Source of the DNA: Dacryopinax spathularia
Lineage: Eukaryota; Basidiomycota; Dacrymycetes; Dacrymycetales; Dacrymycetaceae
Assembly (NCBI GenBank): GCA_037974965.1
Contig: JBBPFI010000005.1
Coordinates: 1,488,001-1,552,000 of the forward strand
DNA length: 64,000 bases
Direction of reading: 5' to 3'
The notes under the pieces were generated by a model, which was not told the DNA's origin, searched no databases, and worked only from the letters and a program-made list of their open reading frames with translations. The position numbers and the translations under genes are program-made. Shown here piece by piece: positions 28,825 to 39,571 of this stretch. Within the stretch, counting starts at the first letter, position 1. Each line of letters opens with the position of its first letter.

Positions 28825-28827
28825 ATT
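28825..28827 (+). repeat. target-site duplication ATT (left)
   Basis: ATT directly abuts the left inverted repeat and is repeated at 39569-39571 just outside the right one. Three base pairs is the CACTA-typical length. Confidence 0.75.
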
Positions 28828-28855
28828 CACCGCATTTAGGGTGCGGATTACCTGA
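28828..28855 (+). repeat. CACTA left terminal inverted repeat (28 bp)
   Basis: Exact reverse complement of 39541-39568; outer end CACCGCATTT, inner end TTACCTGA. Confidence 0.95.
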
Positions 28856-28943
28856 GGCAGGATAGATGAGGTAAGGGAAGGGAAGGGTCTCTGGTCAGCT
28901 TGTGCTGATATAGTTTAGTAGCGCTGAATTGTATTTTATTTAG

Positions 28944-28977
28944 GCCAGTTCAGACGTACTAAACTGTCTGAACTGGC
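28944..28977 (+). repeat. perfect 12-bp hairpin in left subterminal region
   Basis: GCCAGTTCAGAC and GTCTGAACTGGC flank a 10-base loop (GTACTAAACT). It lies 116 bp inside the left end; possibly a protein-binding site for transposition (inference). Confidence 0.75.
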
Positions 28978-29329
28978 GTAGAAAAAATTGATAAAACTAA
29001 GTCGTAATTAATACGCGCTGAACTCGCGAGGGAAAGCTCGCCTGGACTCGTTTCTTAAGGGTTGCTAGAAGAGGCCGGCTGAAGCAGAGTAAACGCGGTA
29101 AGGACAGTTCTCATTTTCAATAGTACTAAACTAGTAGTACTAGCAGTAACAGTAGGGCTCTTGTAACGACAGGTGTGAAGTGATGTTGTTGTGTTGGCCG
29201 CAGGCGCCAACCACATCACTAATGTGATGTTGTTGTGTTGACCGGCGAAGGCCAACACAACAATTTACAATGAAAAAAGAAAAGAAAACAGGAATTGTGG
29301 GGCAGGAATCATTCTGTGGGGGGTATTCG

Positions 29330-30432
29330 CTAGGCGGGGCCATGAGTGAGAGCCATATAACCTACGAAAGGATTAGATTAATTAGAATGAAAGGTTAAAA
29401 AAAATACTTACCGCCAGCCACGGTCAACTTCGCGATCTCCGCCTTGTGGTCCACAACGAACTCGCCCGTAGCCTTTCCGCCGGTCTTGACCTTCTCCCAG
29501 CCATTCTTGGCGGCCGTCTTGACGTTCGTCTTCGCATGATCCATGCGGACGACGTTGAGCATCTTGAAGTCCGCCCAACGTTTCTTGAGGGGCTCGGCAG
29601 GGCGGGCAGCGCGGGCCTTGGCGAGCTCAGCCTTGACCGTCGCATCCCAGATGCGATCGAGTTCGGCACGGCGAGTCAACCCAACGCCAGTCCTAATGCG
29701 GCCCTCCCTGACGTCCTCCTCGAACAGGGCGGTCTTCTGGGCGAAGACCTCGGCGGTCTTCCTCACGCGCTCCTTCTCCACCTCGAAGTCGACCACGGAG
29801 GCCGTTTCGAGCTCGATCTGAGGCTCGCGGAGAGCCTCGAGCTCGTCAAGGTCGAGGCGGGAGATGTCCATACGGACAACGGTGACTCCGTCGCCGTCTT
29901 GCTCTTCAGGAGCGCCATCCTGCTCCTCAATGCTCGTCTGCGGCGAGCGTTAGTACTGATGACTCGTGTTGGCCTTCGCCGGTCAACACAACAACATCAC
30001 ACACTAGCATATAGCTAGGTGTATGCGCCATGTTGACCGGCGTACTCACCAAGACGCCCCCCACATTCTCCCCATCCTTCCCATCCCCATCCCCGTCCCA
30101 ACGCGCCTCATCCATCACCCCAATCCCCTTCTCCTCCATAAGGCGATACGCCTTACGCAGTATCGCCTTCTCCTCCGGCGTAAGCTTAGTTCCTCCCCCA
30201 CTTCCTCCCCCTGCCCCCCCAGCATCGGGCACGTCGATATTCTCCTTCCCCTTGTTGCCCAAGAGGGGGAAAGAGAACGACGACGAGGTGTCCGTCGAGG
30301 CCTGGCGGAGGCTCACGTTGAGCCCCACCTTTTCCGAGCCGGCGGGCGACATGTTCGGGAGCGAGAGCGAGTTGAAGGAAGTGGGAGATCCGTTGCAGTC
30401 GTAGTAGACGTCGATTTCGACGTCGGACATGG
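29330..30432 (-). CDS. CACTA-encoded accessory protein, unknown function
   Basis: The start MSDVEIDVYYDCNGSPTSF begins exon 1 (30432 to about 30050), with a Gly-rich stretch and TKLTPEEKAILRKAYRLMEE. A 112-bp intron holds the 19-bp motif and a 12-bp inverted repeat. Exon 2 (29937 to about 29412) encodes a highly charged, helix-prone chain (DISRLDLDELEALREPQIEL, RVRKTAEVFAQKTALFEEDV, ELDRIWDATVKAELAKARAA). A third short exon after a GTAAGT intron probably ends at 29330; otherwise the frame stops at 29395. About 320 residues, coiled-coil-like. No family recognised. CACTA elements of other kingdoms carry a second, DNA-binding protein; an equivalent role here is only a guess. Confidence 0.6.
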
Positions 30433-31307
30433 TGGCGGTTGTGATGAGAGAGAGGGAGAGCAAAGACGAGTGAGCGCAGGGTGTTATCACCCGCGCGGAA
30501 ATGTAGTTTAGGGGCGGCTCGCCACAACTTGATTTTGAGTCGAGGTTGAATCCGAAGGGAGTAAATGATCCTATTGTCGAGTGGGAATAATGGTTGGTAA
30601 GTGATGTTGTTGTGTTGACCGACGAAGGACTTGGCAATCGCCAGCAGAAGGGCACGAGGCTGCTGGTATCGCCTCGAGAAGTCATCGCTCGTTTTCCGGA
30701 GCGGATTTGAGCGAATATGGTGGAAGTCGCCACGTAGCTCCGTTCACGACTAGAAGTCAATGTAGAGCTTGCAGAGGTCGTCCAAAGAGTAGCATTATAG
30801 TCAAATGATAATGGTTTCAGACAATAATCAAACAACAAAGAACATCAATCTCCCGATGCTGCCTTTTACCATATCAGGAAGGAGCGGCATCTAAAGTCCC
30901 TGGTCTGACAAAGGGCTAGCTCATCGCCTCATTCCTCCTCCTCCTCCTCCTCCTCCTCGTACTAGTACTACTGTAACCAACATCAGCAATATTCTCCGTA
31001 CCCTCTCGTCTACCTACTGACCTGCGTAGTTCATGTAAGTAATCTACCAAGTAGACTCCCTATGGATCGACTGACTTCGTGCCACAGTAAACACCAGACA
31101 GAACGAAATGCTTTCATGCCAGGGGGGCTTGTCTGGGCGGCTGCTTAACGTCTCGTTTGATCATGCAAAGGCGGATGAGAGCCCTCGTACGCCCATATAC
31201 CCTCGATTCGATACTCCATGGTCTGACAATCTGTAGGCTCGCTCCCCAATGGTCGTACCTCTGGATATGCGGGCCCCGAGCGGGCGATCGATGGGGTCGC
31301 TCGGGGC

Positions 31308-32396
31308 ATGCAGGCTACCGTCGCAAGCGCCTCTCCTGAACACCACAACATCGCTAAATTCGCCCACTGCCTACGGAAGGGACTAGCTGCCGTCACTGCA
31401 GTTGCCTCTGTAGCTACTCACTGCCCTGTGAACGCTGCACACTCCTCCGTCCAACTTGAGACCAATCAAGACACCCTTCGCCTTCGGGAGGGTCAGGTCG
31501 CCGTCACTGCGACCACCACCACCGATGCCGCCGGTTCTGCGGTCTTCGCCGGTCAACACAACAACATCACTTCCGCTCCCTGCCTGAGGGGGAGCACCGC
31601 TACCAGCCTGAGGGGTAGCCTGGTCGCCGTCACTGCGACCACCACCACCACCGATGCCGCCGGTTCTGCGGTCTTCGCCGGTCAACACAACAACATCACT
31701 TCCGCTACCAGCCTGAGGGGTAGCCCGGTCGCCGTCACTGCAACCACCACCACCGATACCGCCGGTTCTGCGGTCTTCGCCGGTCAACACAACAACATCA
31801 CTTCCGCTACCAGCCTGAGGGGTAGCCCGGTCGCCGTCACTGCGACCACCACCACCGATACCGCCGGTTCTGCGGTCTTCGCCGGTCAACACAACAACAT
31901 CACTTCCGCTACCAGCCTGAGGGGTAGCCCGGTCGCCGTCACTGCGACCACCACCACCGATACCGCCGGTTCTGCGGTCTTCGCCGGTCAACACAACAAC
32001 ATCACTTCTGCTCAAGAGGTCTCTCTGGCAGCTCCTAGTCCTCCCCCTCCTGTCTACACGCCGCTTTCTTCCACCGATGCTCTCGATCTATCTGCTGTGG
32101 ACAACAACATCTCTAATGTTGCCTCCGGCGACGAAGAGCTGCCCGCGTATCGTAGGCATGATCTTCCTCCTGTCTACAGCCCTCCGCCTCCCCCGACTCC
32201 CAAGAAGCAAAGGCGTGTACGCATCGAGGTGGTGGTGGACTGGGACGTAGTGAGGGAAGATGCCCAGGAGAGAGCAGCCCGCAAGGTGGCAGAAGAAGCG
32301 CAGCAGATGAGAAGGCAGCAGGCTGCCCTGCGCTCGAGGCGTACCCGTCAATTTGGTACGGCTCGTTCGAGCGGGTTGATTGCTTCGTCCGCCTAA
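31308..32396 (+). CDS. repeat-rich CACTA open frame with PPxY motifs
   Basis: A 362-residue frame. Residues about 60-235 are five tandem copies of a 34-residue unit containing AVFAGQHNNITSATSL and VAVTATTTTDTAG, encoded by 102-bp DNA repeats. The C-terminal 130 residues look like ordinary protein: two PPVY motifs (PPPPVYTP and DLPPVYSPP), PKKQRRVRIEVVVDWDVV and a basic, helix-forming end (ERAARKVAEEAQQMRRQQAA). Upstream exons may exist; the first 50 residues are not convincing. Because the repeats are multiples of three, the opposite strand is open too. Either a genuine accessory protein with a swollen repeat region, or a shorter gene whose intronic minisatellite happens to be open. Confidence 0.45.
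   Translation: MQATVASASPEHHNIAKFAHCLRKGLAAVTAVASVATHCPVNAAHSSVQLETNQDTLRLREGQVAVTATTTTDAAGSAVFAGQHNNITSAPCLRGSTATSLRGSLVAVTATTTTTDAAGSAVFAGQHNNITSATSLRGSPVAVTATTTTDTAGSAVFAGQHNNITSATSLRGSPVAVTATTTTDTAGSAVFAGQHNNITSATSLRGSPVAVTATTTTDTAGSAVFAGQHNNITSAQEVSLAAPSPPPPVYTPLSSTDALDLSAVDNNISNVASGDEELPAYRRHDLPPVYSPPPPPTPKKQRRVRIEVVVDWDVVREDAQERAARKVAEEAQQMRRQQAALRSRRTRQFGTARSSGLIASSA
31495..32010 (+). repeat. tandem repeat, 102-bp unit, about five copies
   Basis: Motif copies at 31552, 31681, 31783, 31885 and 31987 give spacings of 129, 102, 102 and 102 bp; the first interval contains an extra 27 bp (a duplicated part unit). Later units are almost identical, implying recent expansion. Each unit contains one 19-bp motif. 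Confidence 0.9.
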
Positions 32397-33084
32397 CTTC
32401 TGCGGTCTATTGCACCACTCGAACCACTCGAACCATTCCAACCTCTTGAAACTCTCATCCCTCGTAAACCTCTCGAAGAATTTCCAACCTCTTGAAGTTC
32501 TGCAACCTCTCCAGATCCCTCCGACCTCCACAACCGTACAACACGGAGTGGACTACACCTTCCTTTCATCACTCTCTACTACCTCTGCTGATTAGTTCTC
32601 TCTTCCATAAGAGCAACAAGCAGCTTTGTAACACACAAGCCCTTTCTAGCTCATGCATTCCTGCTACCCTTCCATCCTTTCTCGTAAAGAAGGCCGCCTA
32701 GCGGCACTTCCCGGATCACTCCTTGTTTGTACCGCCCTAGTGGCATATCCTGTATTAGGGCTGACAGAGCCAAACCAACTTAATCCATTCTTTCGTGTTG
32801 ACGAACCGGTAACTATTACTTAATACGCCGAAGTTAGGGAACCGTGTGGTCGAAGCATGTGGTCCAAGTACTTTGAGCCCGATCCGCTTTGACCGCATGC
32901 GTACGTTTGACCGGTCAGACGTCCTCCTCCCCGACCTAGCCTAATCATCGTGCTCGTCCACTCCATCATTGTTGAAATACAGCTTCAACTTACTGGTCAA
33001 CGTTGGGTGAGTTCAGATGTCAGGCTCGTGCTCTGCAAGAAATTTACACCCGCATATAGATTTTCACCTCTCAGCGCGTCACAC

Positions 33085-36000
33085 ATGGGTGCAAGCAAGA
33101 AGAGACAGAAAGCTATCCCGTCTAGACGACTCGAAGATATCTGGTGCCAGTGCTCAGGTTGCAAGACGCCCGCACGACCGAATGGTCTACAATGGACTCG
33201 GGAGTCGATTCGTACGCACAAGCGTACGAATACCTTCCGAGAGTCTCAGATGGCACTCGTTAGTCCGCCAGTCCTGGGTGCACCCTCGCAAGCCTCTACT
33301 AGTCAAGGGTTGTTGCGATCTCAGGCAAGCGAATGGATGGGGGGTTGGAGAGAGCCGGCAACAGGTTGGGAGGAATCAGCGGGGGAATCGGCAGGAGGAG
33401 ATGATGATATATTGACGAACGAGGGAATTCAACGCCTACCCGAATACACCTGCTCGCCTCCATCTCCAACTACAGCTCCTCCTCCTCCTCCTCCTCCTCC
33501 TCCTCCTCCTCCTCCCTGCTCATCTCTGGTTCGACCAGGCGAACCGTTCCCTCCATTTGATCTCCCACCTGCTGAACTGGTCAACACAACAACATCACTT
33601 CAGGAGAAACCTGAAGTGACGTTCTCTGTGGTTTCGGCTTCCCAGATACTCCCTACTCCTGCGCCTCACCAAGTCGAACAGGATCAGTACCATCCTCCAT
33701 CTGGTTTCACGTCGGCTCAGATTGTCGACACAGCAACATCACTTCAGGAGCCGATGAACACAACAACATCACTTCAGAACCCAGTCAACACGACAACATC
33801 ACTTCAAGACCCAGTCAACACGACAACATCACTTCAGAGCCTTCCTGAAGCGACCGCCTTCACGACCGCCTTCCTCCCTCCCCCTCCGCCTCCTCCCCCT
33901 CCGCCTCCTCCCCCACCGCCTCCAGGAGCACTTGGTAGAGCAAGACTGCGCTCTTCTCGCTCCGAACGCCCTGCTCGCATCTGGGACGAATCGCAGATCG
34001 GAAACCAGCCCGACCATGGCCTTTCTGTTGAGGAACTACACATTCCGCTCCTCACAACATCAACCGAGCGGGAATTCGAGCTGGCTGCGGAAGAGCCTTT
34101 TCAGAGGTTTCTGTCGGTCCATGCCAATGCCGCCGTGCGCGGGTTTTGCCTTGTGCTCCTACACATGCACGCTCACTATCAGCTGCCCCATGTTGCCTGC
34201 GCTCTCTTGGCAACGCTTGTATACGGCATCCTCGAACATCTTGGCGTCTTGGCTTCGGCGGCGGCGTTCTCCCAGGCTACTGCTCCGCCCCGCACGCTGA
34301 AGACCATCTATAAACGCATGCGACTACTGGACCGTTTTGAAGTGAAGACACTCTGTCCGAGTTGCTGGGAGTTCGAGGGCTTCGATGAAGAACATCCGGA
34401 CACGGAACTGGCCGACGAGTTGGGCTTGGAGGAGAAACAATCCAGCACTGATTGGCAGCGACACTGTCCTGCATGCTTGGAGCCATTGTATATGCTTGCC
34501 TCAAAGTCCGGCAACCCTCGGGCGCGTCGGGAAGCGCCATACGATTTGTTTTCCGCGCAGTTGGCTGATTTTCTGGCTCAACCGGGCTTTGAGAGCGCTT
34601 GCGAATCCTACCTTGACAACATGAGCTCGCCCGATGTCTACGCACGCCTTCAAGACGGCAGCGTATGGAAGAACATGAAAGGGCCAGACGATAAGCCGTT
34701 TTTCCCGCGATCTCGAGAGGAAGCGGACGAGCAACGAGAACTACGCCTAGGGGTACTCGTTTCAATGGACTGGTTCAACCCGAATCAATCCACGGTTGCT
34801 GAGTCTCATTCAACTGGGCCACTGTCCATCTGCGTTGCCAATCTTCCGCCTGAACTTAGGTGGGCTACCTCTCTGTTCGCACCTTTTCCTCACTCAGCTG
34901 TCTAGGTTTCGCGTCCGTAATCTCTGTCTAATCGGTATTCTCCCTGGACCGAAAGAGCCGAACGCAGAGCAGCTACAGCGGTTCCTTCGTCCGCTTGTTG
35001 ACGATCTTCTGTTACTCTGGAGGGATGGAGTGGTATTGAAGACGCCTAAGTACCCCGAAGGTGTGCCTCGTCGGTCAACACAACAACATCACAGCCGCTA
35101 ACGTGATCCATTCTATACAGGGCGCAGAGTCAGAGTCGCTTTGCTTGCACTAGTTTGCGATCACCCAGCCCTTTGTAAGATGGCTGGCTTTGCAGACCAA
35201 CGGAGCTCCGAGCGTCCATGCACGCAATGTGAAATCAAGCGTAGCGCCATGCTGAAGTCCGGATGGCAGACAGAGGGAATTCCGTTGCGGGATGGCGAGC
35301 TCCATAAACGACGTGCGGCCAGGTTATACGATCTTCAACAGGGTGTCGCTAGCAAGAAGGAAGCGGACGAGTACGTCAAGAGGTATGGGGTGAGGTGGTC
35401 GGAATTCAACCGTTTGCCATACTTCGATCCGGTCTGCATGGGGGTAATCGATCCTATGCATACCTTTCTCCAAGGTGAGCCACTTGACCTTCTGACTACT
35501 AAGCTGATTTTGGCCTAGGTCTTACCAAAACTCTATGGTATCATACCTGGGTCGGCGGAGGCAAGCAAGAGCCCAAGAAGACCGTACTACGAGAGCGAAC
35601 AAAGCGTGGAGTCAGGCGTGAACTCGACGATATCCACGATGCCTTGAGCACGTTTGAAATGCCGAGCTGGTATGCTCGTCTTCCGACCCAGGTGGGCTAC
35701 CCTGCTGGTGGTAGCTTGACCACCGACGAGTGGAGAGCTCTTGCCGTTCTGTACGGGCCGGCCGTGGTAAGTGCCTTGCGTTTCAGCCAGAATCATCTGC
35801 TTAACTTATGCAGATACCGCCGGTTCTCCTCAAGTCCACCTCTCGCGCACATCCTCAAGCAGCGGGGAACTATCTGAAACTCGCGTGTGTGCTGAAGATA
35901 TACACGCGAAGAGAATTGACCGAGGAGGAGCTGGTACGGGCATCAAACCTGTACCTCGAGTTTTTCGCAGAATATGTTGAGGTATGCAATACAGTCAACA

Positions 36001-37149
36001 CAACAACATCACACAGGAGATGCTGATGTGCTCACCTTCTTTACCCTCTCACTTGATCTAGATATATGGTGAAGCCAATGTCACCCCGACGTTCCACTGG
36101 GTGACCCACATGGCGGCTCAGGTCCGCCGATACGGTCCCGTCCATGGCTTCTGGACGTTCCTTTTCGAGCGCCTGAATAAGGTCCTAAAGACCTTCGAGA
36201 CAAACGGGCATAAAGGAGGAGCGGTCGAGGTTACCTTTGCAAGGGAGTTCAAGCGCGAGATGAGTCTGGCTTGAATGGTAAGTCTCTTCCCCAAACCAAC
36301 CTGTATATCTCACCTGAACCGCCAAAAGAACGCCATTCTCGCTCAGCAAGAGCAAGATCGCCTCGCGCGCTGGCTCGCCATCAGGCTGGAGGAGCGAACA
36401 CGGGATGTAGCTCGGCTTGGAACGCTAGCTGCTATGGCAGCGGAACAGCAGGAGGCCTCAGGTAGCCCTTCGCGCTGCCTTCCGTCTGGCACGGCACGAA
36501 TTGTACGACTAGGTCAAGCGCGGCAGGCCGAATTGCTGGACTGGTACGGTCGCCATCATCCGGAGCTCAAGCTGTACCGCGCAGGCGATCCCGACGCCCC
36601 GTTCGGTGCCAACTTTCTCACCAGTAAAGCGACCTTCTACTCCGAGCTCCGCATTGGCGACAGGCGCATTGTGACAGCACGGGAGGAGAAACATAGTAAG
36701 TCAGATTCGCTTATCCTGTATCAAGTGCAGCAGGGTACACAGTGGGTCGGCAAGCTGCGAGAAGTGTTTCGACACTCGCAGAGAGGATTGTCCAAGCCAC
36801 TCACCTTTGCCGTCGTCGCTTGGCTGGTCCCTCTTCAGCATACGCCACCACATGCCCACCTTTACCAAGATTTGTACGTTTCCATTTGGGTTTGGGCGAC
36901 ACTGCTTAAGGGTATTCAGGAAGGAGCTTGAAGTGGATTTTTGGCACCACCAGCGGTACCAGTCTCGGGACGACTTTGGCGTACAACCGCTAATACTGGC
37001 GCACGATATACATGGGATGGCTGCACGCTGCACAATGGAGGCTTGGGGGAAACAGATATGGATTACTATCGGCATGAGCCAGGTAAGCAAGGAGAAGCAT
37101 GATCATTGCCTAACTAAAGTATCTACTCTAGAACGGTCGATCGTTGTAG
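33085..37149 (+). CDS. Tnp2-family (CACTA) transposase
   Basis: The start MGASKKRQKAIPSRRLEDIW leads to the CxxC pair WCQCSGCKTP. A long low-complexity region holds poly-proline runs and VNTTTSLQ repeats made by the 19-bp motif. The Tnp2 core follows: GVLVSMDWFNPNQSTVAES, ICVANLPPELR, NLCLIGILPGPKEPN, LALVCDHPALCKMAGF, RPCTQCEIKRSAM, FNRLPYFDPVCMGVIDPMHT, then HWVTHMAAQVRRYGPVHGFW and FLFERLNKVLKTFETNGHKG. Introns are 34860-34905, 35061-35120 (with motif), 35475-35518, 35767-35813 and 35982-36061 (with motif). The frame meets a TGA at 36272-36274. A plausible C-terminal continuation (ELEVDFWHHQRYQ, AWGKQIWITIGMSQ) runs in later exons to a stop at 37149, but the linking splice is unresolved. 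It cuts and joins element ends. Confidence 0.85.
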
Positions 37150-37386
37150 GACAAGAAGCTCAAGGCTATGTACTCTCATAAACTGCACTCTGTCAAAACT
37201 ACTGAGTTTAGGGGCAATGCTTGTATGGTAGATAGCGGTGCAAAGTAAGTACTCTGGCCGCCGCGAACTCACAGGACTGAAGAACTCATCAGCATCTTTG
37301 GTCAACACAATAACATCACCCAGGCCAACAGGACGACATCACTCAGAGAAACCCAAGCCGCATCACCTACGATCAACACAACAACA

Positions 37387-39197
37387 TCACACCTGTGCAG
37401 CAGGTGTGATTGGCTGAGAGCCTCCGATCATCTCATCGCAGAGGTCTTCGGGGACGTGCGATGGGTATCCTGGACGGCGTACCCACTTCGAGAACTTCGG
37501 CAGCTCCTCCTCGACCCAGTCCGCGTCGAGCATGAAGTCGTAAGGCTCTTTAATGGGCATCAGGTGCGAGACACGCCCCAGATCAACCCGTTTCGTGTCC
37601 TTAGGTTGTTTCCCCCCTTCGGTGCGTCGATCCGCAATGAGCTGCTTTTCCCACTCCCACAGCTGCAAGACTTCAGTGCGTAATTCCTCTGCGGATCGAT
37701 TCACTGACATTTTTGTTTTTCCAAACCGGCCTCCGCTCCTCCCGTACGCAAAGTTTCGGGTCATCGCGCTCTTTGGCCGTGATTTGGCCCGTTGCGTAAA
37801 GCTGCGCTCTCCAGCCAGGGTTCATCTCGCCATCCTCGTCGGCACTCCACTCATCGCCATGCCAATCATTCTGGGACAGCTGCGACTGGATGGGAGCCCA
37901 AGCAATATGGCGAGCCTTGCAATAGGTTTCGATGCCAGCGCAAAACTTCTCGGCACGCTGAGATTTGGGTGAGTTCTGCAAATTGCCGCTTCAGAGCAAG
38001 GAACTGACCGTTTTCCGTCTCTCGGTACGCCGCTGCTCTCTTTCTTTGGCTCGCTTCTCAACCCCACCATCGACAACAGCAGCCTTCTGAGCTCTCCACG
38101 AGCGGACCAAATGAGGGAAGCTCTGGCGGATGAGTACGTGCAGTACCTCCTTGTTCAGCCAGCGCGCACGAAGATCAGGATTGTGGTTGACCCTGCCTTC
38201 TGGTCCCTACATCGAGTAAGTGATGTTGTTGTGTTGACTGGAGAATGATCACTCACCTACACATCGAGTAAGTGATGTTGTTGTGTTGACCGGCATGCAG
38301 ACCACTCACCTCCTCGTCCTTCAGGACTTCCGACACAGCACGCTCAAAGATGATCACGTTCTCTCTCGCTCTGATCCCACGGCCGAAGTTGAATCTCAAG
38401 GTGGCCTCACCCTCGGGCGAGTCGGGGTCGCTTACGTCTGGGAGAAACAGTACACCCTTCTTGTATCCGACGAGGTCGTACATTTTGTAGAGGAGCTCCC
38501 GCTATGATGGTAAGTCATCTCAGATGATGGCCGTGGAAATTGATCCGTACCTGCAGATAGTTGTTGATACGTAGGTCCGCTGTTGGTAGCCGCTTCTTGG
38601 GAATGGCGGTGATGAGGTTTTCGGGCTCGTCCCCGACGCCATCGTCCGGCGGTGCCTCTGCCGCCAGCCTCCTCTTCTTCTTAGGTCGATGGCATGAGGG
38701 CCTGTTCTCTAGCCTGGTGACGCGCTGAGCAAGGCTGTCGATGTCTACGGCTCCCGTGGATGGGTCGTTGGACGAATCGGACGAGCGCGTGAGGGCGAGG
38801 ACGTCGCTAGGAGGCCGCTGCGGCGGATGTGAGGGCTGCGAGACGCTCGGCGGAAGCTGCAAAGGGGCTGTGAAGGATCTGAGGGTGGAGATGCAAGAGC
38901 ATAAGTGATGTTGTTGTGTTGACCAGCGAAGAGAGCTAACCCTCCATTATCAGAGGCCCTGTCCCGCCGGCTCTGCTCCGACACCATCAACTCAAGTACG
39001 ACCCTCCGTGTCGAATCGTCGCGCGCATCTCGGTATGCCCTTTCGAGCCAGTCGCGGCTTGCGACCGACTGTGTATCGCTTTGGATGAGCTGGGTGGGGG
39101 GTGAGAAGTCTCCGGTGGATTGGCTCCAGTGCTGCGCCCCGCCTTCTATGAAGGGGTTGGCCTGCTGAGAGCCGTCGGAGGAGGAGTAAGATGGCAT
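37387..39197 (-). CDS. CACTA second protein, unknown function, convergent to transposase
   Basis: The start MPSYSSSDGSQQANPFIEGG begins a Ser/Gln-rich N-terminus. An intron (38940-38879) contains the 19-bp motif. Exon 2 has IDSLAQRVTRLENRPS (short coiled coil) and HRPKKKRRLAAEAP (nuclear-localisation-like). Later exons give LLYKMYDLVGYKKGVLFLPD, LRFNFGRGIRARENVIIFER, ARWLNKEVLHVLIRQSFPHL, AEKFCAGIETYCKARHIAW and, at the end, LQLWEWEKQLIADRR and KEPYDFMLDADWVEEELPKF. The intron at about 38309-38207 is a tandem pair of motif-bearing units. The last junction (near 37700) was not resolved cleanly. About 470 residues. No family recognised; the NLS suggests a nuclear, perhaps DNA-binding, partner of the transposase. 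Confidence 0.65.
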
Positions 39198-39264
39198 CGA
39201 GGGGGAATGCTGAGACGGGGAAAAAGGTGGTCTGAGCTCGAAGATATTTGAGTCGAGTAAAAGC

Positions 39265-39382
39265 GGCCTTGCCCGGTCAGTGATAGATGGGCGAAGCCCG
39301 CCTTAGCCAAAAAAATTTATTGATAAGAAAAGATCTTCTGGCCGAGTCAGTCCATGTTAGCTAAGCCCGCCTTGCCAAGATT
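39265..39382 (+). repeat. right subterminal direct repeats
   Basis: Two diverged copies of a roughly 40-bp sequence, 39268-39307 and 39340-39380, share TCAGT at the start and AAGCCCGCCTT at the end. The position, 190-300 bp inside the right end, fits subterminal binding sites of CACTA elements (inference). Confidence 0.55.
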
Positions 39383-39540
39383 AGGGAAGGCGAGATCCCC
39401 TTGTTTGGCCTAGGATAGTTAAGATTGATATTACTATTTTAAGTCAGGTAGATACAGGTCGTTATAACTATCTTATCTGGAAAAGGAGGGGAAGATCTTT
39501 CCTTCCCACGGTCAGGTGACCTTTTTGCACCTGAACCAAA

Positions 39541-39568
39541 TCAGGTAATCCGCACCCTAAATGCGGTG
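39541..39568 (-). repeat. CACTA right terminal inverted repeat (28 bp)
   Basis: Exact inverted copy of 28828-28855, followed directly by ATT. Confidence 0.95.
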
Positions 39569-39571
39569 ATT
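39569..39571 (+). repeat. target-site duplication ATT (right)
   Basis: Matches ATT at 28825-28827, outside the opposite end. Confidence 0.75.

Follow-up and report, generated by a model that had tools for sequence, protein, structure and literature searches.

What a short DNA motif may be doing when it recurs throughout the body of a transposable element is the question raised by a 64,000-nucleotide stretch of the Dacryopinax spathularia genome (contig JBBPFI010000005.1, positions 1,488,001 to 1,552,000; the window). The motif, GTCAACACAACAACATCAC, is 19 base pairs (bp) long and lies in introns, coding exons and the DNA between genes of a CACTA/EnSpm-type element, here called F1. Comparison with related elements of the same genome shows that such motifs are confined to their own families at the mismatch tiers given below, that they occupy fixed places in a fixed order of strands, and that their sequences change in concert from family to family. 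The explanation preferred here, with a probability of about 0.6 and by analogy with the VANC proteins of VANDAL transposons, is that a family-specific, trans-acting factor encoded by the element recognises the motif, the sites together forming a self-recognition array with a role akin to anti-silencing.

The motif and the element that carries it

The scan of the window gave 21 copies of GTCAACACAACAACATCAC at up to three mismatches, all between 29180 and 38923; 14 are exact, five have one mismatch and two have two, with 15 on the plus and six on the minus strand, and the rest of the window has none at that threshold. With two further degenerate copies (four mismatches, at 31336 and 37324), this bears out an earlier note, made from the letters of the window, which had reported about 22 copies in both orientations, all within a 10.7-kb CACTA element. 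The chance expectation is 0.01 copies (mean of 100 dinucleotide shuffles), and the best 16-mer of F1, at up to two mismatches, fills 15 bins of 200 bp as against at most three in six shuffles, results that together rule out chance or a simple repeat. Over 14 hand-picked copies, chosen so that most of the tight coding arrays were left out, the commonest base per column reaches 98% in the motif, 64% in the eight columns upstream and 41% in the far flanks, so that the unit has an abrupt 3' border and a 5' side that tails off within a few bases; there, some copies have CTTCGCCG in common.

The whole genome (29.2 Mb) was also searched, the counts of repeats being lower bounds. At up to two mismatches all 41 matches lie in copies of F1, 21 in the window and 20 in a second copy on contig C3; the genome-wide count that the earlier note had proposed has thus been made, and places none outside these two. 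At exactly three mismatches there are nine more, two in sister elements, one in a motif-rich relic on C4 and six elsewhere, and the reversed pattern, as a control, has 10 matches at up to three mismatches.

F1 is 10,741 bp long and has perfect 28-bp terminal inverted repeats, CACCGCATTTAGGGTGCGGATTACCTGA at the left, which read CACCG..CGGTG and have the 5'-CAC..GTG-3' ends of CACTA/EnSpm elements; an inner inverted repeat, CCGCA..TGCGG, lies inside the terminal one (28828-28855). Its hand-spliced transposase matches the Tnp2 profile (Transposase_21, PF02992) at 70 bits, the cut-off being 28.6, and F1 is therefore CACTA/EnSpm-like. The first transposase exon alone scores under that cut-off, and the Plavaka profile PF18759 stays below its own in F1 (16.7 vs 26.3 bits). 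Fungal EnSpm elements are described with CAC..GTG ends and 3-bp duplications in the excerpt of PMC12730594 relied on here; F1 has such duplications, ATT around the window copy and AGT around the copy on C3. The latter (10,627 bp, with different flanks) is 99.2 and 99.7% identical to the window copy over two long alignment blocks and is shorter by one repeat unit of about 0.1 kb with one motif copy. The gene 2 array has five motif copies in one F1 element and four in the other, i.e. motif-bearing tandem repeats vary between copies.

The features of F1 are as follows; the gene structures are hand-made models drawn from the sequence.

28828..39568, no strand: CACTA/EnSpm-type element F1, with ATT flanks at 28825-28827 and 39569-39571
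28828..28855, plus: left terminal inverted repeat
29180..29242, minus: motif copies at 29180 (one mismatch) and 29224 (exact), past the 3' end of the gene 1 model
29411..30430, minus: gene 1, hand-made model with start at 30430, intron 29938-30049 and a possible second intron from 29411
29982..30000, plus: exact motif copy, antisense inside the gene 1 intron
30601..30619, minus: exact motif copy upstream of the gene 1 start codon
31227..32396, plus: gene 2, an open frame whose 34-residue repeats bear the motif
31552..32005, plus: five exact copies in gene 2 coding sequence (31552, 31681, 31783, 31885, 31987), frame GQHNNIT, the last four at 102-bp spacing
33085..36274, plus: Tnp2 transposase, hand-spliced, further exons being likely to about 37.2 kb
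33580..33832, plus: five copies in transposase exon 1 (33580, exact; 33724, 33754, 33784 and 33814, at 30-bp spacing), frame VNTTTSL
35074..35092, plus: exact copy in transposase intron A, 13 nt after the intron start
35994..36012, plus: exact copy in transposase intron B, 12 nt after the intron start
37301..37390, plus: copies at 37301 and 37372 (one mismatch each) and the degenerate 37324, between the transposase and gene 4 models
37676..39197, minus: gene 4, hand-spliced, with homologs adjoining six sister transposases
38220..38290, minus: two exact copies (38220, 38272) in a duplicated gene 4 intron (38207-38309)
38905..38923, minus: exact copy in gene 4 intron 1 (38879-38940)
39541..39568, minus: right terminal inverted repeat

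Sixteen of the 21 copies are inside gene models, those outside being at 29180, 29224, 30601, 37301 and 37372. As previously suggested, coding copies are read in two frames, both open, and at least six copies fall in predicted introns of three genes (29982 in gene 1; 35074 and 35994 in the transposase; 38220, 38272 and 38905 in gene 4). Between the left end and the first copy there are 352 bp, and between the last copy and the right end 645 bp, in accord with the proposal that the outer 350 bp are avoided; at up to three mismatches GTCAACACAACAACATCAC does not have the subterminal concentration that is a feature of plant elements, other subterminal repeats not having been searched for.

Two further observations concern the setting of individual copies. 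At 38207-38309 gene 4 seems to have either a whole intron duplicated in tandem, the two introns (53 and 50 nt, both running GTGAGT..TAG and both with a single motif copy) meeting without an exon in between, or a single intron of 103 nt. Inverted partners, judged by eye, adjoin some sites (29180, 29224, 29982, and intron B of families F7 and F8) and were not seen beside others; a hairpin as the form recognised was among the readings set aside.

Sister elements with their own spellings

Searching with the first transposase exon gave two relatives on C12 and one each on C2, C1, C10 and C3 at 47-58% identity, and more distant ones at 40-44% on C12, C5, C17, C2, C1 and C13, family F9 being at 40%. 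Gene 4 homologs adjoin six of the closer relatives (three F7 elements, F8, F10 and F11), and none was found beside F9. Each family has a motif of its own:

F7 (C2, C3, C12): YCCAGCACAACTACATCAC, 36/36 matches at up to one mismatch in the three F7 elements; of five at two mismatches, two are in F7, two in F1 and one elsewhere
F8 (C1): GTCGGTACAACTACACAAC, 31/31 at up to two mismatches in the C1 element (18) or in relics on C4 (4), C2 (3) and C6 (6)
F9 (C5, C17): GCGCCAACATAATACTTCACC, 27 exact and 32/32 at up to two mismatches in the two elements; at three mismatches, 2/4 lie elsewhere
F10 (C12): YCCGAYACCATCACATCAC, 27/27 at up to two mismatches in the C12 element (15), a C17 relic (10) and the F11 element on C10 (2); 31 more at three mismatches, 13 in those loci and 18 outside (two within F1 copies), the control count being 8
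F11 (C10): variants around TCCGGCAnnnTCACATCAC

The right half ACATCAC, common to F1, F7, F10 and F11, suggests common descent. Four loci carry only the left, gene 1 side of the array (C17:355.9-358.7k, C6:396.3-398.5k, C4:1197.8-1200.0k and C2:3083.7-3086.1k); these are not among the transposase matches, have slightly different spellings with strand order -,+,-,+, and are probably truncated or non-autonomous relatives.

With the transposase placed on the plus strand, all eight full elements scored, from five families (F1, three F7, F8, two F9 and F10; some three-mismatch matches within clusters are included), have their sites in the strand order -,+,-,many +,-, and 4/4 shorter relics have -,+,-,+. 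This scoring left out the C3 copy of F1 and the F11 element (C10:932-941k), in which another family's query gave only seven matches, the one at C10:941198 being perhaps out of order. In the seven transposase loci all 39 sites at family thresholds (up to three to up to five mismatches) are on the transposase strand, with weaker inverted copies (five to six mismatches) in four of the seven, L020, L021, L022 and L048. Intron A (after LKTPKYPE) has a clear motif in 5/7 loci, a diverged one in F11 and none in F9; in intron B (after FFAEYVE) the motif is clear in 6/7, and F11 has an inverted pair that has diverged. Counted by eye, the distance from the start of the intron to the motif is 12-14 nt in 6/6 loci with a motif for intron A and in 4/6 for intron B. 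F7, F8 and F11 have, in intron B, an inverted copy right beside the motif (L019 about 460-510, L021 2700-2760 and L020 224-274), a potential hairpin or cruciform.

The places are thus kept while the spelling is not. Among N-terminal, intron A and intron B sites, F9 and F11 being left out as their motif differs in length or is too degenerate, different sites of the same element are on average 1.94 bases apart (n=35), whereas the same site in different families is 6.75 bases apart (n=76). Independent decay of sites is disfavoured, since within-element and between-family differences would then be alike; gene conversion is strained, since it would be needed on 19-bp islands with largely unrelated flanks on opposite strands. 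A reader that differs between families would explain fixed places and changing sequence with the least strain.

Of the two outcomes that the earlier note gave as refuting its proposal, a 19-mer equally common outside CACTA elements and sister elements that conserve the peptides instead of the DNA motif, neither occurred in that form, the 19-mer staying within the two F1 copies at up to two mismatches. The place of the intron motif is kept as its spelling changes; the N-terminal motif of the transposase is read in the same frame in 5/5 readable families (VNTTTSL, SSTTTSP, TGTTTQQ, LDTITSH, SDNITSH). This sharing of frame is only partly contrary to conservation at the nucleic acid level, because the peptide follows the DNA motif of its family and intron copies share the same DNA. 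Selection on the peptide was rejected on the grounds that F1 uses two frames and has intron copies with the same DNA, despite the recurring N-terminal frame. Insertion of whole introner-like introns was likewise rejected for introns A and B, which are common to families at 47-58% identity, B also to F9 (40%).

The PF02992 profile finds 17 other loci in the genome, of which seven are kin of F1; the remaining ten, of a second Tnp2 clade, were scanned with 20 kb around each. The element on C16 has a dispersed motif of unrelated spelling, CTCACGATTCTAACACACC (11 copies at up to five mismatches), those on C5 and C7b have another unrelated one, TGGCACCCATTTCGCT, and CACTAG-ended elements on C14, C8 and C7a (L034, L036, L038) carry a recurring 18-bp palindrome, GACCTCTNTCAAGAGGTC. 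A palindrome, GACCGCTGTCAAGCGGTC, also occurs in C10b, and GTCCTTCTGAAGAAGGAC in the C16 element. The best word fills 15 of the 200-bp bins in F1, nine in C16, eight in C5 and five in C14 (at most three in six shuffles of each); the C14 value comes from a purine-rich word, its palindrome filling four. No dispersed motif came out of the same scan when applied to the outer 20 kb on either side of the window. Substitutions in second-clade motifs are fewer than in the 40-bp flanks (2/272 vs 69/1353; Fisher p 0.0005), and three copies of a family with palindromic sites gave 1/108 vs 46/480, 1/108 vs 55/480 and 0/108 vs 20/480 (p 0.0012, 0.0002 and 0.034). Single copies of the C16 motif away from its element (C4:89442, C13:69382, C1:666836 and others) may be relics of deleted relatives.

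The surroundings of F1 in the window include frames with LALRTWAIWxR or near it at 1.6-2.1k, 11.3-11.7k, 23.9-24.4k, 26.3-26.8k, 40.9-41.5k and 43.2-44.0k, which look like a local cluster of paralogous membrane-protein genes. Long minus-strand frames at 61.3-63.2k presumably resemble a fungal KDZ-type transposase.

What may read the motif

A factor of the kind preferred here would bind the elements of its own family, and not their relatives, at some 12-20 fixed places spread along the body, which lie in introns, in coding DNA of low complexity and in the neighbourhood of genes; as its specificity shifted within a family, the sites would shift along. The reader would be a protein that binds DNA, candidates being the products of genes 1, 2 and 4 or the transposase N-terminus, and its job, as with VANC, may be to keep the chromatin of the element open. 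The readers are argued to be element-encoded because the spellings differ within one genome. Two proposals of the earlier note thereby gain support, i.e. a possible binding site for an element-encoded protein and conservation acting on the nucleic acid, in that the sites of sister elements stay where they are while each family has a sequence of its own, in introns and exons alike.

A number of results weigh against such a factor. Gene 1 has no match in Pfam (exons), in the PDB or in one protein-database search, gene 2 gave three Pfam matches, all below cut-off, and gene 4 has none above it. A run of 19-21 near-invariant bases is long for a protein site, and 15 of the 16 F1 copies within gene models are on the coding strand, a bias that a DNA site does not need. 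Compared with random placement over the whole element, substitutions in the F1 motif are unremarkable (P 0.49), F1 being too young to tell, and conservation in the second clade is non-significant (P 0.09-0.13). Nor does every relative have an array: L024 (C2:731k), a distant relative of F1, has no clear motif in the 3.4 kb read, the elements on C9, C10a and C2 have low-complexity words only, and C10b has only two palindromes (five second-clade families being examined); the examination for motifs also left out the distant relatives C12:726k, C1:1495k and C13:239k. Confinement is weaker in the second clade, with 10/22 matches at up to three mismatches (4/5 exact) in the element for the C16 motif (control 7), 4/4 at up to one mismatch and only 19/38 at up to two for C5/C7b (control 5), and 9/9 exact and only 15/28 at up to two for the palindrome of C14, C8 and C7a (control 8).

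The strand bias would suit an element-encoded factor that acts on RNA, binding sites in pre-mRNA or mRNA and so aiding splicing, export, stability or escape from RNA interference; this is possible but unlikely. Besides the coding-strand excess in F1 and the 39 transposase sites, the similar distance of the motif from the intron start at most loci, its A/C-rich composition on the coding strand and the lack of copies at up to three mismatches in the likely promoter stretches at 30.65-31.3 kb and 32.4-33.0 kb are all in its favour. However, the 39 sites are not independent, since strand is inherited at fixed sites, and the antisense form of the motif has stop codons in two frames, so that exon constraint may cause part of the bias. 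The antisense copy in the gene 1 intron of F1 is matched in order and strand in all 12 scored loci (gene 1 itself was read in F1 only), copies next to gene 4 exons are antisense to them in F10 (two) and in F7 on C2 (one), the weaker inverted copies noted above run against the transposase, and the palindromic sites of the second clade suit DNA dimers. The intronic splicing signal considered earlier, if taken as exclusively intronic and sense, does not fit F1, where open coding frames hold 10 of the 21 copies and an antisense copy is among the six in introns; a wider role in RNA retains the standing just given. A related and rather improbable proposal is that the motif is a family tag acting on nascent transcripts or by way of guide RNAs, with a family-specific RNA-binding protein or element-derived small RNAs licensing the element's own transcripts against silencing. 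The tags, at 19-21 bases, are of small-RNA length and are on the coding strand at most sites, and such a tag would drift in concert because reader and sites form one matching set.

It is improbable that the sites serve an accessory protein of TnpA type, active as in En/Spm in building the transposition complex or regulating transcription, and play no part in anti-silencing. The element type of F1 fits, and repeated motifs of CACTA elements, thought to be bound by TnpA-like proteins, differ between subfamilies in the excerpt of PMC2613891 relied on here. The known motifs are subterminal, however, whereas in F1 the outer 352 and 645 bp have no copy at up to three mismatches and most copies are kilobases from the ends. 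The least probable explanation, and a very doubtful one, is the self-spreading mini-repeat of the earlier note, i.e. a selfish or passive, functionless 19-mer spread and homogenised by local tandem duplication and gene conversion. Adjacent F1 copies at 30, 44, 52, 71 and 102 bp, and the one motif-bearing repeat unit by which the two F1 elements differ, are as it would predict; but the copies are dispersed, on opposite strands and with largely unrelated flanks, and their places and strand order are fixed across families. We know of no 19-bp conversion tracts without flanking homology, which also counts against it.

Relation to known transposon systems

This one genome of 29 Mb holds at least six families of one clade with differing tags, plus a second clade with unrelated or palindromic tags. 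If F1 and its relatives do encode family-specific readers, that could explain how related elements in one genome avoid cross-activation, and joint change in the specificity of reader and site would become directly testable. A search of open-licence PubMed Central (subscription papers were not searched) gave no report, among the matches listed, of body-wide, family-specific motifs in fungal CACTA elements. The excerpt of PMC12730594, on fungal EnSpm and Plavaka elements, agrees with F1 in termini and target duplication, and makes no mention of repeated interior motifs, which F1 has.

CACTA elements offer an alternative pedigree for the predicted reader, in that TnpA-type proteins bind family-specific subterminal motifs (PMC2613891, as excerpted). 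F1 resembles the TnpA/TNP1 systems of En/Spm, Tam1 and soybean Tgmt* in its CACTA type, 3-bp duplication and family-specific repeated motif; unlike in these, the F1 motif is interior, across genes and introns, and no TnpA homolog was identified in F1.

The nearest described behaviour to the arrays of the F1 clade is, by analogy, that of VANC and the VANDAL elements of Arabidopsis. The VANC protein, encoded by the transposon, has as its targets short noncoding motifs, those in introns included, within elements of the same family; these motifs vary from family to family and multiply through tandem repeats (PMC5735166), and elements bound by VANC lose silent marks (PMC5735166, PMC10398659). In common with these, the elements here have many short, family-specific motifs, introns included, that differ between related families, and local repeats carry the motif. 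By contrast, the transposase here is a fungal CACTA/EnSpm one with PF02992, not Mutator-like, and the VANC domains DUF1985 and DUF287 are not among the Pfam matches of genes 1, 2 and 4; the motif is 19-21 bp as against 8-9 in VANDAL, copies are also in coding exons, and places and strand order are kept between families. In VANDAL, binding by the element's protein strips DNA methylation, and the predicted reader here may do likewise. Should the analogy hold, element-wide, family-specific self-recognition would have arisen in fungal CACTA elements apart from the VANC of plant VANDAL.

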